Shown here piece by piece: positions 51,936 through 60,604 of a stretch of 64,000 nucleotides of DNA. The translations under genes were made by a program, and so were the position numbers. The DNA lies in assembly GCA_024639405.1 (NCBI GenBank), contig JAHEIL010000001.1:1-64000 (forward strand). Direction: 5' to 3'. Source of the DNA: Crocinitomicaceae bacterium (GTDB taxonomy: Bacteria; Bacteroidota; Bacteroidia; Flavobacteriales_D; Crocinitomicaceae). The number at the start of each line of letters is the position of its first letter. Positions within the stretch are counted from its first letter, which is position 1. The notes under the pieces were generated by a model. It was given only the letters and a program-made list of their open reading frames with translations. It was not told the DNA's origin and did no database searches.

Positions 51936-52706
51936 ATGAAGAAGCTATATAAGTTTTTATTGAATAAATTACCACGACCATTATTGATTCGTTTAAGTTA
52001 TTTATTTAAAAAAATTGCTCCAATTGTTTACAAAGGAAACAATGTTGAATGTCCTGTTTGCAATCGTTCGTATTCAAAATTTTTATCCTATGGTTCTTCA
52101 ATAGCGCACCGTGAAAATGTTTTATGTCCAGGCGATTTAACACTCGAACGTCACCGATTAATGTGGTTGTATTTGAAAGATCATTCTGATTTTTTTACTA
52201 GCAATAAGTTAAATGTGTTGCATATTGCTCCAGAACAATGTTTTCACCAACGCTTTAAACAACAAGAAAATTTAAATTATTTAACCGGAGATTTAGTTTC
52301 TCCAATTGCAGATCTTCATTTTGACTTACATCAAATTCCTTTAGAAGAAAATCGATTTGATGTGGTCTTTTGTAATCATGTGCTAGAGCATGTGAATGAT
52401 GCAAATCAATGTATGCGTGAGTTATACAGAGTAATGAAACCAGGAGGCTGGGGGATTATGCAAGTGCCTCAAGATTTTGATCGTGAAATTACATTTGAAG
52501 ATTCCTCAATTACAAGCGAAGAAGACAGAGAACGTTATTATTGGCAAAAAGATCACGTTCGATTATTTGGAAAAGACTATCCAAATTGGTTAGAAAATGC
52601 AGGTTTTAATGTAGAGGTATTTGAAAAAGAGAAATTCTACTCTTCGTCTCAAATTAATCGTTTTAGATTGCAAGAAAAAGAAATTTTGTATATTGTACAC
52701 AAATAA
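51936..52706 (+). CDS. SAM-dependent methyltransferase, class I, with N-terminal Cys motif
   Basis: 256 residues. A hydrophobic/basic start (LLNKLPRPLLIRLSYLFKK) may be an amphipathic membrane anchor. Next, a C-x2-C site (VECPVCNRSYSKF) followed by a further Cys (LCPGDL), possibly a zinc site. The methyltransferase fold follows: VLHIAPEQCFHQRFKQ, NYLTGDLVSPIADLHFDLH, and FDVVFCNHVLEHVNDANQC with the later VMKPGGWGIMQVPQD. Substrate unknown; such proteins often act on glycan or lipid precursors. The MbnP-like gene starts 6 bases later. Confidence 0.85.
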   Translation: MKKLYKFLLNKLPRPLLIRLSYLFKKIAPIVYKGNNVECPVCNRSYSKFLSYGSSIAHRENVLCPGDLTLERHRLMWLYLKDHSDFFTSNKLNVLHIAPEQCFHQRFKQQENLNYLTGDLVSPIADLHFDLHQIPLEENRFDVVFCNHVLEHVNDANQCMRELYRVMKPGGWGIMQVPQDFDREITFEDSSITSEEDRERYYWQKDHVRLFGKDYPNWLENAGFNVEVFEKEKFYSSSQINRFRLQEKEILYIVHK

Positions 52707-52712
52707 ATAACA

Positions 52713-53690
52713 ATGAAAAATTTACTATCATTAATTACTGTTTTTGGAATATTTATTACACTACATTCTCAGAAAAATGTTTACTTAACAATTGTTCCGA
52801 AAGTAGGTAGTGAGGTGTTACAATTGGACAATAATTACACAAGTTTAAATGGTGATCTGTTTAAATTGGCTCATTTTAATTATTACTTGTCTAATTTGCA
52901 TTTAATTCACGATGGTGGTCAAGATTTAGATTTATCGGACACCGTTTTTTTAATTAAACATAACCAATATGTTTTAAATCTAGGCATATTATCGATTCAA
53001 AATATTGAGTCCATTCAATTTGGTATAGGAGTTCCACCTATATTAAATACGCAAGCAGGAGCAAATGCTTTAGATATTTCCTCCTATCCATCAAACCATC
53101 CATTGAGTTTTCAAGATCCTTCAATGTATTGGGGTTGGTCTGCGGGCTATATGCACATGATAATCGGTGGTAGAGCAGATGCAAATAATGATCAAGATCC
53201 TGAAAAAGTATTTGAATTACACAATTTAGGCGATGCAAATTATCATACGCTTTCTTTAAATGTTATTCAAACGAACACAACACCTGAAATGATTGACGTT
53301 TACATGGATTGCCATGTTGATCGTTGGATGAAAAATATTCCTATAAAAACAGTTGGTATTCAACATGCATCTATTAATTACAATGCTTCAATCATGTTGA
53401 ATGTATTACATGAAAATGTATTCGATCAACCTGAAACAGCAGCTGTAAATTCATTAACTTATACAAAAGGAACGTTAATATATCAAGCAGAAAACAAAAT
53501 TATGCATTGGCAAAATGTTAAGAATGCAGACCGTTTTCAATTGGTAGATTTAACAGGGAAATTAGTATTAACTGCAAAAGCGAATGAATCTGGATCAATT
53601 GATTTAAATGAACAGAGTAATGGAGTTTACTTGTTTACGATTGTAGGTTCAGATGGTACTGAATTGAATGCGATTAAAATAAATCATTGA
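52713..53690 (+). CDS. MbnP-like copper-protein candidate with T9SS sorting domain
   Basis: 325 residues. Signal peptide 1-19. Residues 20-220 resemble the MbnP family (DUF/PF20243-type) of periplasmic metalloproteins: FKLAHFNYYLSNLHLIHDGG, IQFGIGVPPILN, and the aromatic motif MYWGWSAGYMHM (Trp140, Trp142, His148, Met149), then VFELHNLGDANYHTLSL. In the methanobactin system a Trp of MbnP is oxidised to kynurenine by the di-heme enzyme MbnH and the product binds Cu. The C-terminal 85 residues look like a T9SS type A sorting domain (FQLVDLTGKLVLTAKANESG ... GVYLFTIVGSDG), so surface export is expected. The di-heme gene starts in its stop codon. Confidence 0.8.
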   Translation: MKNLLSLITVFGIFITLHSQKNVYLTIVPKVGSEVLQLDNNYTSLNGDLFKLAHFNYYLSNLHLIHDGGQDLDLSDTVFLIKHNQYVLNLGILSIQNIESIQFGIGVPPILNTQAGANALDISSYPSNHPLSFQDPSMYWGWSAGYMHMIIGGRADANNDQDPEKVFELHNLGDANYHTLSLNVIQTNTTPEMIDVYMDCHVDRWMKNIPIKTVGIQHASINYNASIMLNVLHENVFDQPETAAVNSLTYTKGTLIYQAENKIMHWQNVKNADRFQLVDLTGKLVLTAKANESGSIDLNEQSNGVYLFTIVGSDGTELNAIKINH

Positions 53691-54682
53691 TGCGTTTAAA
53701 ATCGTTTTCATTTACATTGTTTTCAATTGGCGCATTTATTGTGCCTTTTTTTATGGTTAAAAATTCGATTGAAATTAAAAAAATAGCTAAAGAAATTGAT
53801 CGAACTAAAGAACAATTAACCATTCATCTTGGTGAGAAACTGTTTTTTGAAAAGCGTCTATCTATTAATAATACTGTTTCTTGTGCTACATGTCACGTCC
53901 CAAAATTTGCTTTTACAGATCGAAAAAAAGTTAGTGAAGGTGTCTATGGAAGAAAAACTGAGCGCAATTCTCCTTCATTATTAAATTCGTATAAATTAAA
54001 AACTGTAATGTATGACGCGCATTTACCAACATTAGAAATGCAAGTAATCGTGCCAATTCAAGAACATGTTGAAATGGATATGAAAATGATTGATTTAATC
54101 AAAAAAATCAAACAAATAGAGCCTTATAATTCTTTAGCGCTTAAAGCATTTGACAGAGAATTTGACGCATATGTATTAACAAGAAGCATTGCTGCTTATG
54201 AACGAACATTGCTTTCAGAGAATTCTCGTTTTGACCAATATTACTCGGGTAAAAACAAAACTGCATTGACAAGAAATGAGAAAGCTGGCTGGAAAATTTT
54301 TAGTGAAAAATTATATTGCACCAAATGTCACCCAGCACCAGATTTTACAACCTATTTACCTGAAAATAATGGTCTTTACAAAAATTTTAAGTCAGACAAA
54401 GGTCGTTTCAGAATTCATTTAGATTCAACTCAAATTGGCTTTTTCAAGATTCCTTCTTTGCGGAATAGCGCAATTACATATCCCTACATGCATGATGGAA
54501 GCATGCAAACATTAAATGATGTGATAGATCATTACAGTAGAGGAGGAGCAGGCCACACATTACAAAGTAAAAACATTCAACCCTTTAATTTGTCAAAGGA
54601 AGAAAAATACCAATTAATTGTGTTTTTAAAATCCTTAACCGATTTAACTTATTTAAAAAAAACATCCATACATACGAAATAA
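53690..54682 (+). CDS. Di-heme cytochrome c peroxidase/MauG family (MbnH-like)
   Basis: 330 residues from the ATG at 53690, which overlaps the MbnP-like stop by one base. N-terminal hydrophobic segment (signal or anchor). Two c-type heme sites: CATCH (65-69) and CTKCH (210-214). Family segments: RNSPSLLNSYKLKTVMYDAH, EMQVIVPIQEHVEMDMKMID and FFKIPSLRNSAITYPYMHDG. Members are CCP peroxidases or MauG-like enzymes that oxidise a protein partner through a bis-Fe(IV) state. Coupling to an MbnP-like gene makes an MbnH role (Trp to kynurenine) likely; a peroxidase is the alternative. Confidence 0.86.
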   Translation: MRLKSFSFTLFSIGAFIVPFFMVKNSIEIKKIAKEIDRTKEQLTIHLGEKLFFEKRLSINNTVSCATCHVPKFAFTDRKKVSEGVYGRKTERNSPSLLNSYKLKTVMYDAHLPTLEMQVIVPIQEHVEMDMKMIDLIKKIKQIEPYNSLALKAFDREFDAYVLTRSIAAYERTLLSENSRFDQYYSGKNKTALTRNEKAGWKIFSEKLYCTKCHPAPDFTTYLPENNGLYKNFKSDKGRFRIHLDSTQIGFFKIPSLRNSAITYPYMHDGSMQTLNDVIDHYSRGGAGHTLQSKNIQPFNLSKEEKYQLIVFLKSLTDLTYLKKTSIHTK

Positions 54683-54777: not shown

Positions 54778-55359
54778 ATGAGAGTTCATTCAAATTTCCA
54801 TCAAACGAATCAACTACTTCAAAATGAATTAGACTTGATTAAAAAAGCGCAGAAAAATCCTGAACAATTTGGACCATTGTATAATAAATACCATGAGCAA
54901 ATTTTCCGTTACATCTACCAACGAATGGATGATATTGAGTTAGCACATGATATTACAGCGCAAGTATTCATTAAAGCATTGTTAAATATTACTAAGTACG
55001 AATACAGAGGTGTTCCTTTTTCTTCTTGGTTATATAGAATAGCTAAAAGTGAACTTTATCAATCTTTTCGTGATAAAAAAGCAGAACGTACAATCAATAT
55101 TGATGCAATTAATGTTGTAGCTATCATTGATGAAATTGAATCTGATGAAACAGAAGAAAATAAAAAGCACTTATTAGACTCACTTTCATTATTAAAAGAA
55201 AAAGATATACAATTAATTGAATTAAGATTTTTTGAGAAAAGATCTTTTAAGGAAATGGGAGAAATTTTAGAGCTTACAGAAAACAATGCCAAAGTGAAGA
55301 CTTTTAGAGCACTTGAGAAATTAAAAACATTATTTTTAACTAAAAAACCAGCGTTATGA
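54778..55359 (+). CDS. ECF-type RNA polymerase sigma factor
   Basis: 193 residues with sigma region 2 (EQIFRYIYQRMDDIELAHDI, then ITKYEYRGVPFSSWLYRIAK) and region 4 helix-turn-helix (LLKEKDIQLIELRFFEKRSF, KEMGEILELTENNAKVKTFR). Regions 1.2 and 3 are absent, as expected for the extracytoplasmic-function class. The next gene overlaps by 4 bases and encodes a single-helix membrane protein, which is the layout of a sigma/anti-sigma pair. No promoter consensus seen upstream. Confidence 0.92.
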   Translation: MRVHSNFHQTNQLLQNELDLIKKAQKNPEQFGPLYNKYHEQIFRYIYQRMDDIELAHDITAQVFIKALLNITKYEYRGVPFSSWLYRIAKSELYQSFRDKKAERTINIDAINVVAIIDEIESDETEENKKHLLDSLSLLKEKDIQLIELRFFEKRSFKEMGEILELTENNAKVKTFRALEKLKTLFLTKKPAL

Positions 55360-56060
55360 AATTAAATTATAACCGCCCTGAACTGTCAAGTTCTGAAATT
55401 GAAAAAAGACAAGATTTTAATACAATATTAAATCAAATTAAAACAGTTAAACCCTATTTATTTAAAAAAATATTGTTTTACGGAGCAATTGGACTCACTT
55501 CGATTGCTGGTATTTTTATACTGAATTCAACTACATTTAAAACTTCAACAAAAAAAACATATGGTACTAAAATTACATTAAACAAAACAAAATTACCCAA
55601 CAAGTCTTACAATACAAGTAATGATGTGAAACCAATAATTTCAATGAGTAAACCTTTGAAAAATGGAACAAATATAAAAAATGAAAAAGAGGATTTTCAT
55701 GATGAAATAGTTGAATTCACACCTAAAATCAAAACTGAAATTAAAGCAAATAAGCAAAGGAATTCGATTTTACCATCAATTTCTGGAGTTGAGTATGGAA
55801 CGATTACAAGGGATCAATTTTTAAATGCCGTAAAAGTTGAAATTGCGAATTCATCAAAAATAGTAAGTTATAAAATTAATTATTTTAAAATTTCAAATTT
55901 TATAGAAAAGGAAATTATTGGAGATGAACTTTCTGAAGAGCTAAAAAAAGATGTATTAACTTATCACAATCAATTACCCGTTTCAATTACAAACATTTTG
56001 TCAATTGATACAAATAACCAAGTTAATTCATTGCCATCTATTCGCTTATTTATTAAATAA
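55356..56060 (+). CDS. Single-pass membrane protein, possible anti-sigma partner
   Basis: 234 residues. A cytoplasmic N-terminus of about 37 residues, one membrane helix (about 40-58, ILFYGAIGLTSIAGIFIL), then a Lys/Thr-rich low-complexity periplasmic linker and a C-terminal domain of about 95 residues (GTITRDQFLNAVKVEIANSS, IVSYKINYFKISNFI). The ITRxQF and VxSYKI pattern reminds me of the GldM-type periplasmic repeat, but this is weak. ATG overlaps the sigma factor stop by 4 bases. No zinc anti-sigma motif (HxxxCxxC). Function inferred only from position and topology. Confidence 0.62.
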   Translation: MKLNYNRPELSSSEIEKRQDFNTILNQIKTVKPYLFKKILFYGAIGLTSIAGIFILNSTTFKTSTKKTYGTKITLNKTKLPNKSYNTSNDVKPIISMSKPLKNGTNIKNEKEDFHDEIVEFTPKIKTEIKANKQRNSILPSISGVEYGTITRDQFLNAVKVEIANSSKIVSYKINYFKISNFIEKEIIGDELSEELKKDVLTYHNQLPVSITNILSIDTNNQVNSLPSIRLFIK

Positions 56061-59800: not shown

Positions 59801-60604
59801 TTAATTCTTTACAAATCGAACTGAAACAATCCCTTTTGAAGTTGCAATAGAAATAAAATAAACACCATTTTCTAAAGCATGTACATCTATTTTTTGATTT
59901 GTAGAGGTAAGAATTTCTTGACCATTTAATGTGTGAATAGTAGCAGATTTAAACGCATCAATTGTTGATATTTTTACAAAATCTGTTGAAGGATTTGGAA
60001 AGACATCAACAGTATTAACATTCGAAACTTCAATTAAACTTGCTGGATCTTCTTTCCAAATACGAATATCATCCACATATAACTTGTATCCGTTATTTGT
60101 TTTATTTACAAAAGCAACATAAACAGAATCATCATTAAAACCTTTCAGTGATAAGTCTACAATTCTTGTTGTCCAATCAACATATTCTGCACTTAATTTA
60201 GCAATCGTGTCTTCAAAAGCAGCAATAGTTGGAGTTGTTCTTGAAATCAATACTAAATAATCATCTGGAAATGAAGCGTCTTGAGAACGGGCATTCCATT
60301 CAATAAAGTTTCCAAAAGAACCTAGTTTAACTTTAGGCGTGATCAACCATCTACTAGCTGTTCCAACTGGAGAGAAAAAAGATGTGGAAGCTGCAATTGA
60401 ATCTGTCACATTAGAAGGATCAATTGTACTTATCCAAGCAGAAGTATATTCAGAAACTGCTGGGTCAGGAGTGAGCCCATCATTATCTATCATTGAAAAA
60501 TTTGAGGGAATTCCATTTTGAAAATCAACGTTAAACAATGTTATTTGCGCGTTAATTTTTGAAAAAGTTAAAACAAGTGTTAGAAAGAAAATGTATTTTA
60601 CCAT
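59801..60604 (-). CDS. T9SS type A cargo protein with choice-of-anchor J domain
   Basis: 267 residues. Signal peptide (about 1-19, SKINAQ). Residues 20-190 fit the choice-of-anchor (cleaved adhesin) domain: LFNVDFQNGIPSNFSMIDND near the start, ASRWLITPKVKLG, YVDDIRIWKED at the end. The last 75 residues are a sorting domain (VDVFPNPSTDFVKISTI ... FISIATSKGIVSVRFVKN). A carbohydrate- or protein-binding surface protein. Monocistronic. Confidence 0.88.
   Translation of the reverse strand: MVKYIFFLTLVLTFSKINAQITLFNVDFQNGIPSNFSMIDNDGLTPDPAVSEYTSAWISTIDPSNVTDSIAASTSFFSPVGTASRWLITPKVKLGSFGNFIEWNARSQDASFPDDYLVLISRTTPTIAAFEDTIAKLSAEYVDWTTRIVDLSLKGFNDDSVYVAFVNKTNNGYKLYVDDIRIWKEDPASLIEVSNVNTVDVFPNPSTDFVKISTIDAFKSATIHTLNGQEILTSTNQKIDVHALENGVYFISIATSKGIVSVRFVKN

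Follow-up and report, generated by a model that had tools for sequence, protein, structure and literature searches.

Can a di-heme enzyme of the MbnH type modify a protein that the cell then exports through the type IX secretion system (T9SS)? This question is raised by two overlapping genes at positions 52,713 to 54,682 of the window, i.e. the whole stretch of 64,000 nucleotides analyzed here (contig JAHEIL010000001.1, positions 1 to 64,000, from the Crocinitomicaceae bacterium assembly GCA_024639405.1). In Methylosinus trichosporium, MbnP binds Cu(I) through a His, a Met and solvent, beside the kynurenine into which MbnH converts the first Trp of the WxW motif. Using profile searches, structure predictions and genome comparisons, we found that the window encodes a member of the MbnP family with the profile and fold of a T9SS sorting domain at its C-terminus, and an MbnH-like partner that has lost the inter-heme Trp; that the genome possesses the T9SS proteins SprA and PorU; and that the tailed MbnPs and the Trp-less partners form single groups. 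We propose that the locus is a T9SS-exported branch of the MbnP/MbnH system, in which the enzyme would modify W140 and the product would be displayed or released for copper capture, a reading that we regard as somewhat probable.

The First Gene Encodes an MbnP with a Conserved WxW Motif

The preliminary description of this DNA had called the first protein MbnP-like from its motif MYWGWSAGYMHM, which is present and places Trp at positions 140 and 142. The profile search that it proposed bears this out, the Pfam MbnP family (PF20243) giving 91.9 bits over residues 21–214, for a gathering cut-off of 27. The AlphaFold2 model (mean predicted local distance difference test, pLDDT, 80.3; predicted template modeling score 0.62) found as its top six Foldseek matches the six chains of 7l6g (E 1.0e-5 to 1.0e-4, best probability 1.00), and the structural realignment of residues 19–241 with 7l6g (Z 14.1, root-mean-square deviation, rmsd, 3.3 over 198 residues) identified the MbnP fold. 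The CorA/MopE fold was absent among the best 50 matches listed by Foldseek and the best 50 listed by realignment.

The conservation of the motif was assessed in alignments of the window and 31 close relatives, i.e. 32 rows for MbnP and 32 for the enzyme; L016 and L021 (MbnP) and L017, L018, L020, L025 and L026 (enzyme), with no start at the expected place, were used as stop-to-stop frames. The WxW motif (W140-G-W142) is kept in all 32 MbnPs, whose invariant residues are Q20 (directly after the inferred cleavage point), M138, W140, W142, H148, H170, C200 and H218. In the wider set, M138, W140 and W142 occur in 56/56 tailed MbnPs; among the untailed ones, both Trp are present in 41/41 and M138 in 35/41; and position 170 is a His in 54/56 tailed and 41/41 untailed proteins. 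The profile of the 32 aligned MbnPs found no MbnP among solved structures; that of the untailed MbnPs found 7l6g, and in the profile alignment the M138, W140 and H170 columns stand opposite the Met, the first Trp (GMAWNW) and the His of 7l6g. W140 is our predicted oxidation site and M138 a candidate copper ligand; kynurenine formation and copper binding by the window's MbnP are presumed.

A stretch resembling a calcium loop lies between the WGW motif and His170; it mostly reads DSNxDGxPD in relatives, and is absent from L053–L055. CorA was reported to bind calcium as well (PMC3912023; this paper, PMC3621798 and PMC6405878 are cited here and below for the excerpts that were available).

The C-Terminal Tail Has the Profile and Fold of a Sorting Domain

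The second claim of the preliminary description, a T9SS type A sorting domain at the C-terminus of MbnP, also withstood the profile search: TIGR04183 matched residues 264–316 with 28.8 bits (cut-off 23), and the fold of the predicted structure agrees. Residues 252–325 superimpose on translocon-bound T9SS substrates (8gl8_D, Z 9.3, rmsd 2.1; 8gl6_D, Z 9.1), and also on 8glk_D (Z 7.8), mirolase (8qb1, Z 8.1) and RgpB (5ag8, Z 7.4). As unrelated Ig-like domains (Z 7–8.6) and Bacteroides DUF3244 domains (8.3–10.4) score alike in the same list, the fold alone is not decisive; it is the profile and the predicted fold that jointly carry the case for a sorting domain. The E-values, the folds and the conservation in the 31 relatives rule out a fortuitous match for either the WGW motif or the tail.

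The genome of the window (2.63 Mb, 98.12% complete) encodes the two machinery components that we sought, SprA (2417.8 bits) and the PorU sortase (1274.8 bits), both over the cut-off. Of its 109 TIGR04183 matches at E 0.01, 103 exceed the cut-off, and the MbnP tail is among the weaker ones (31.0 bits in that search). Because this T9SS is present in the genome, surface display of the window's MbnP is likely. A canonical T9SS tail (TIGR04183, 40.1 bits) also ends a choice-of-anchor J protein encoded in the window on the reverse strand (59801–60604).

Could the tail have decayed, leaving an ordinary periplasmic MbnP/MbnH pair? The window's tail lacks the usual YPNP start, which is present in relatives outside the family (for example VTVYPNPSKG in L061), so that TIGR04183 is entered at model position 12 or 13; Pfam Por_Secre_tail (PF18962) gives 23 bits, under its gathering cut-off of 27; and TIGR04183 reached E 0.01 in 22 of the 32 close sequences, ten missing it, for 35 of 38 tailed MbnPs from other loci (L071, the 39th, was left out of that alignment) and 0 of 41 untailed ones. 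However, the fold matches the translocon-bound substrates as described above, the tail region is retained in all 32 aligned MbnPs, and the window's tail keeps the GxY and the lysine-containing end; in Porphyromonas gingivalis, the C-terminal part of the tail is reportedly sufficient. We consider such a decay quite improbable.

The Partner Enzyme Resembles MbnH and Has Lost the Inter-Heme Tryptophan

The second gene had been described as encoding a di-heme CXXCH protein whose start overlaps the stop codon of MbnP by one base. This is the case: its ATG begins at 53690, the last base of the TGA of MbnP, and the protein, with two CXXCH motifs (residues 65–69 and 210–214), falls in the MauG/bacterial cytochrome c peroxidase (bCcP) superfamily (CCP_MauG, 159.8 bits, cut-off 25.6). 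It is MbnH-like by profile, sequence and predicted fold, as its best solved match is 6e1c both by sequence (E 7.6e-38) and by predicted structure (E 5.2e-16), an entry entitled MauG-like protein associated with microbial copper homeostasis. The MauG-related model TIGR03791 gave 182.8 bits, below its cut-off of 443.85.

Both heme motifs, Q118, E128 and Tyr282 are invariant in the 32 aligned enzymes. Gln118 and Glu128 are presumably equivalent, residue by residue, to the pocket residues of MauG. Tyr282, opposite the Tyr of 6e1c, would be the axial ligand of MauG/MbnH type. For MauG, Gln103 is named in PMC6405878. The N-terminus varies, a lipobox Cys column being present in at least 90% of the alignment and absent in the window and L014; the enzyme of most relatives seems to be a lipoprotein, and those of the window and L014 are probably anchored by an N-terminal helix.

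At the inter-heme position, pairwise alignments place Tyr108 opposite the Trp of both 6e1c and 3hq6, and the residue is Y or F in 32/32 aligned enzymes. The inter-heme Trp occurs in MauG and the previously characterized bCcPs, and in MauG it is necessary for stabilizing the bis-Fe(IV) state and for the synthesis of tryptophan tryptophylquinone (TTQ; PMC6405878); with its loss, another chemistry is therefore possible. In BthA, the inter-heme Trp is replaced by Ser and bis-Fe(IV) is still formed (PMC6405878). The preliminary description had the same chemistry as in methanotrophs act on the tailed protein. Its family and pairing hold, by sequence, predicted fold and relatives; the chemistry itself is less certain, the partner being devoid of the Trp found in MbnH, bCcPs and MauG.

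Tailed and Untailed Pairs in Related Genomes

The window's genome encodes four MbnPs, each followed by an MbnH-like gene, and only the window's MbnP is tailed. The other three pairs lie on contig C14 of the same genome (G000) at 8.3–10.1 kb, 86.2–87.8 kb and 99.6–101.4 kb (L010, L011 and L012); two of these paralogous MbnPs are lipoprotein-like and one soluble periplasmic-like. The idea that the tailed pair uses the enzyme type of the paralogs was rejected, because the three paralogous MbnHs keep the Trp.

The tailed protein is not a singleton of one genome either: 181 of 200 same-family genomes have some MbnP match and, by hand count, at least 110 have a match extending to query residue 282 or beyond. 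The 14 relatives that are named, all metagenome assemblies, comprise ten labeled Flavobacteriales or groups within or above (Flavobacteriia, Cryomorphaceae, Crocinitomicaceae) and four Chitinophaga pinensis. In a phylum sample of 395 genomes, 96 have an MbnP and at least 13 a tailed one; in the phylum and class searches with the MbnP alignment, five candidates were scored per genome, so that the tallies from these searches are lower bounds.

The Tail and the Loss of the Inter-Heme Tryptophan Go Together

The loci examined contain 114 distinct MbnP frames, 70 of which are tailed, and in every tailed case a di-heme gene follows within 400 bases. In the enzyme nearest the tailed MbnP, the inter-heme residue is F (32), R (21), W (9), Y (6) or L (2). 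Larger regions revealed that, for seven of the nine MbnPs whose nearest enzyme has a Trp, this enzyme is immediately followed by a second one that is Trp-less, so that 68/70 tailed MbnPs have a Trp-less enzyme in their operon. The 39 untailed MbnPs with a readable partner are accompanied by Trp (32), Tyr (5), Ala (1) or Leu (1); these partner counts exclude L040, L039 (a fragment), L076, L088 and the terminal fragment of L011. A strict rule equating tailed with Trp-less was rejected, since L113/L159 and L118/L175 have only a Trp-bearing enzyme and 7/39 untailed partners are Trp-less. In one other family (f6), the untailed MbnPs of L147, L152, L154, L155 and L156 have partners with Tyr at the inter-heme place, apparently through a separate loss of Trp.

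Two trees, both quick ones supported by the Shimodaira–Hasegawa-like approximate likelihood ratio test (SH-aLRT) only and built with a subset of the close relatives, agree with this association. In the MbnP tree, built on 97 cores with the tails excluded, all 56 tailed rows, from across Bacteroidota, make up one side of one branch (SH-aLRT 99); L076 was labeled there, and in the conservation count, as a third class, which leaves the tailed group unaffected. The tree of 120 enzymes, made after removal of the inter-heme columns, has its root at L009, a single row on a long branch. All 54 Trp-less enzymes that it includes from tailed operons cluster in a single 56-member group (SH-aLRT 96), together with L118 and the partner of the untailed L073; Trp is lost in 55 of these 56 rows, the exception being L118. 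The simplest reading is one origin of the tail and the Trp-less enzyme together; their order is indeterminable from these data, and the labels are shared by descent and do not count as independent events.

Operons with Two Enzymes

We read 32 regions, of which 31 contain a tailed MbnP, 29 of them from beyond the window's family. A Trp-less enzyme (with R, in one case S) and a Trp-bearing one of the FFWDG type occur together in 24 of the 29, a fraction that is not a random sample, as 20 larger regions were hand-chosen, eight of them for a Trp in the nearest enzyme. The other five have a Trp-less enzyme only (L094, L095, L098 and L177) or a Trp-bearing one only (L175). Within the family, L100 has a Trp-less enzyme only and L159 a Trp-bearing one only; the window, L100 and ten further loci with flanks have a single enzyme. 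The gene order varies among the two-enzyme operons with one tailed MbnP (L089–L093, L097, L158, L160–L174 and L176). In L096 (3878–7686), an untailed MbnP with a Trp enzyme is followed in tandem by a tailed MbnP with an Arg enzyme, and in L169 the Trp-bearing enzyme lies 5' of MbnP; these arrangements suggest that the three-gene operon derives from two tandem pairs.

These operons bear on the chemistry. The Trp-less partner might make a hydroxylated or cross-linked Trp, or oxidize both W140 and W142, a Trp-bearing enzyme completing the job elsewhere. The loss of Trp in nearly the whole partner group, the second enzyme in most of the chosen tailed regions outside the family and the invariance of both Trp of WxW are consistent with this possibility. 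By contrast, BthA reaches the bis-Fe(IV) state whether its inter-heme residue is Ser, Ala or Trp (PMC6405878), most operons of the window's family have one enzyme only, and four loci outside the family (L094, L095, L098 and L177) also have the Trp-less enzyme only. We regard this other oxidation chemistry as unlikely. With hardly less reserve, we put forward as a tentative and rather doubtful extension of our proposal that the Bacteroidota branch arose once with a Trp-less enzyme; that two enzymes elsewhere would act in turn on WxW to give a doubly or differently oxidized, exported metal site; and that the Trp-less enzyme would act alone in the window's family.

We also asked, with the L010 enzyme of contig C14 as the query, whether genomes of the window's genus always supply the second, Trp-bearing enzyme in trans, and found no link. 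A full-length relative (identity at least 64%) is present in at least 23 of 26 genomes, its own included; the enzyme is in pieces in G090 and G149, and the matches in G017, the nearest relative of the window, reach only 45% identity. The L010-type enzyme also occurs in G106, G134, G152, G158 and G164, with no full-length tailed MbnP among the matches listed.

Organization of the Locus and Neighboring Genes

The features of the locus are collected in Table 1. The methyltransferase gene ends 6 bases 5' of the MbnP ATG and is probably co-transcribed with it. In 11 of the 12 same-family regions with flanks (L043–L047, L049–L051, L053, L055 and L100), a methyltransferase-like open reading frame (ORF) stops at the MbnP gene or shortly 5' of it; none was seen in the twelfth, L159. 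Directly 3' of the pair (54778–56060) lie a sigma factor gene of the extracytoplasmic function type and a gene whose product apparently has a single membrane segment; a sigma-like ORF was seen by eye after the pair in several relatives.

Table 1. Features of the MbnP/MbnH-like locus in the window. Residue numbers refer to the protein concerned; profile scores not given here are in the text.
Feature	Position	Strand	Basis
SAM-dependent methyltransferase with CxxC pairs	51936..52706	+	PF08241, 57 bits
MbnP-family protein, 325 aa, with C-terminal T9SS sorting domain	52713..53690	+	PF20243; TIGR04183; Foldseek/7l6g
Predicted signal peptide, residues 1–19	52713..52769	+	Hydrophobic N-terminus; cleavage point inferred, before Gln20
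WxW motif, M138-Y-W140-G-W142	53124..53138	+	Conservation; alignment with 7l6g
Calcium-loop-like DxNxDxDxxE, D156-ANNDQDP-E164	53178..53204	+	Sequence; function inferred
His170, candidate copper ligand	53220..53222	+	Conservation; column opposite the His of VHVG in 7l6g
Predicted T9SS type A sorting domain, residues ~251–325	53463..53687	+	TIGR04183; structural matches
MbnH-like di-heme enzyme (MauG/bCcP superfamily), 330 aa	53690..54682	+	CCP_MauG; TIGR04039; 6e1c
Heme site 1, C65-x-x-C68-H69	53882..53896	+	Invariant, 32/32
Tyr108 at the inter-heme position	54011..54013	+	Pairwise alignments with 6e1c and 3hq6
Gln118 and Glu128, distal pocket residues	54041..54073	+	Invariant, 32/32; opposite Gln/Glu of 3hq6
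Heme site 2, C210-x-x-C213-H214	54317..54331	+	Invariant, 32/32
Tyr282, predicted MauG-type axial ligand of the six-coordinate heme	54533..54535	+	Opposite Tyr in 6e1c, Met in 3o5c; 32/32

Around the tailed operons, family scans covered 85 of 177 listed neighbor genes. At least 8 of the 85 encode HYC_CC_PP small Cys-rich proteins and at least 2 multicopper oxidase domains; most scanned neighbors have no evident link to metals. Searches of single genes confirmed HYC_CC_PP proteins directly 5' of the tailed MbnP in L161 (3530–3931), L163 (7054–7443), L165 (3498–3899), L171 (7023–7421) and L172 (7161–7556), and found no HYC_CC_PP match in five other small upstream candidates; small proteins of L089, L096, L158 and L167 look similar by eye and gave no match. 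YHYH proteins are encoded near MbnP/MbnH operons in two distant genomes (L011, 7850–9208; L090, 8287–9999, downstream), the former, with a sorting tail, after the pair of the window's genome at 86 kb of C14.

An alternative is that the exported protein serves in redox reactions or in the handling of peroxide, or as a sink against copper toxicity, instead of scavenging copper. The partner does belong to the bCcP/MauG superfamily, no importer was recognized beside the window's pair, and the neighbors of the relatives are varied, few being metal-related. However, the enzyme has a dedicated MbnP partner with conserved candidate metal ligands, and its aligned axial Tyr is that of the MauG-type, not the bCcP-type, six-coordinate heme. 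On balance, we find such a role rather unlikely.

Proposed Pathway

T9SS carries folded cargo. We propose that MbnP would enter the periplasm through its signal peptide (Sec export) and fold there. The membrane-bound di-heme enzyme, driven by peroxide, would then oxidize the first Trp of the WGW motif, W140, with kynurenine as the most likely product; together with His170 and probably Met138, this kynurenine would complete a Cu(I) site. Recognition of the C-terminal domain would direct the folded and modified MbnP through SprA; the protein would then be attached to the cell surface, or released from it, and would capture or hold copper there. The enzyme would function without the inter-heme Trp, as BthA does with a Ser at that place. 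In this scheme, the order of modification and export, the kynurenine, the copper and the physiological role are what we infer.

Besides the weak start of the tail and the missing Trp discussed above, the following results weigh against this pathway. First, the MbnP equivalog model TIGR04052 gave 32.5 bits, for a cut-off of 140. Second, TIGR04039 (MbnH family), the best NCBIfam model listed for the enzyme, gave 230.5 bits, below its cut-off of 362.85. Third, the MbnP model is least confident in the WGW loop (pLDDT below 50 at residues 132–137 and 141–147). Fourth, no copper gene was recognized among the neighbors of the window's own pair.

If the proposed pathway is correct, the Trp-to-kynurenine copper chemistry described for methanotrophs would be used by a large group of Bacteroidota, the product being exported folded, and a gene pair common to many related bacteria would comprise a modifying enzyme devoid of the amino acid thought to be central to its type. 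The partner group offers natural variants (Tyr, Phe, Arg, Leu or Ser for Trp) at the debated inter-heme relay residue, each beside its own substrate, so that the need for this Trp in long-range protein oxidation is directly testable.

Comparison with Known Systems

The closest counterpart is the MbnP/MbnH pair of M. trichosporium OB3b (7l6g and 6e1c). The window's MbnP shares its fold, its WxW and its conserved Met and His, and both enzymes are di-heme proteins with a Tyr at the aligned axial place. The window's pair differs by the T9SS tail and the single Cys of MbnP, by the unmet cut-offs of the stricter NCBIfam equivalog models, and by the Tyr in place of the inter-heme Trp and the N-terminal membrane segment of the enzyme; furthermore, no methanobactin genes were recognized among the ORFs read around the pair.

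Two other MauG-like systems are comparable to the partner enzyme. BthA of Burkholderia is also a di-heme enzyme with a replaced inter-heme Trp (Ser257); it has Tyr–His ligation and forms bis-Fe(IV). Its residue is Ser instead of Tyr, Phe or Arg, and no MbnP partner is mentioned for it in the available excerpt (PMC6405878). MauG likewise oxidizes a Trp of a partner protein, the methylamine dehydrogenase precursor (preMADH), and has a Tyr axial ligand (PMC6405878); it makes TTQ and keeps Trp93, whereas the window's enzyme stays below the TIGR03791 cut-off. As to the tail, the window's MbnP has in common with the T9SS type A substrates RemA, RemZ, NucA, mirolase and RgpB a C-terminal Ig-like sorting domain, as predicted here, and differs from them by its cargo, MbnP, and by the diverged start of the tail in the window's family.

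The preliminary description held that a surface-displayed, kynurenine-bearing copper protein would be new. This was too strong: CorA and MopE of methanotrophs, with their di-heme partners, are kynurenine copper proteins that are surface-associated or secreted (PMC3912023, PMC3621798), so that surface display is not new by itself. In MopE/SACCP and CorA/CorB, a kynurenine and two His make up the Cu(I) site, and a T9SS tail is not mentioned in the excerpts of these papers. In the open-licence literature searched, we found no description of the tailed MbnP branch or of its Trp-less and doubled enzymes. The occurrence of the pair outside methanotrophs is not new by itself either; as far as searched, what is new compared with these systems is the T9SS route combined with a Trp-less, often doubled, partner enzyme.

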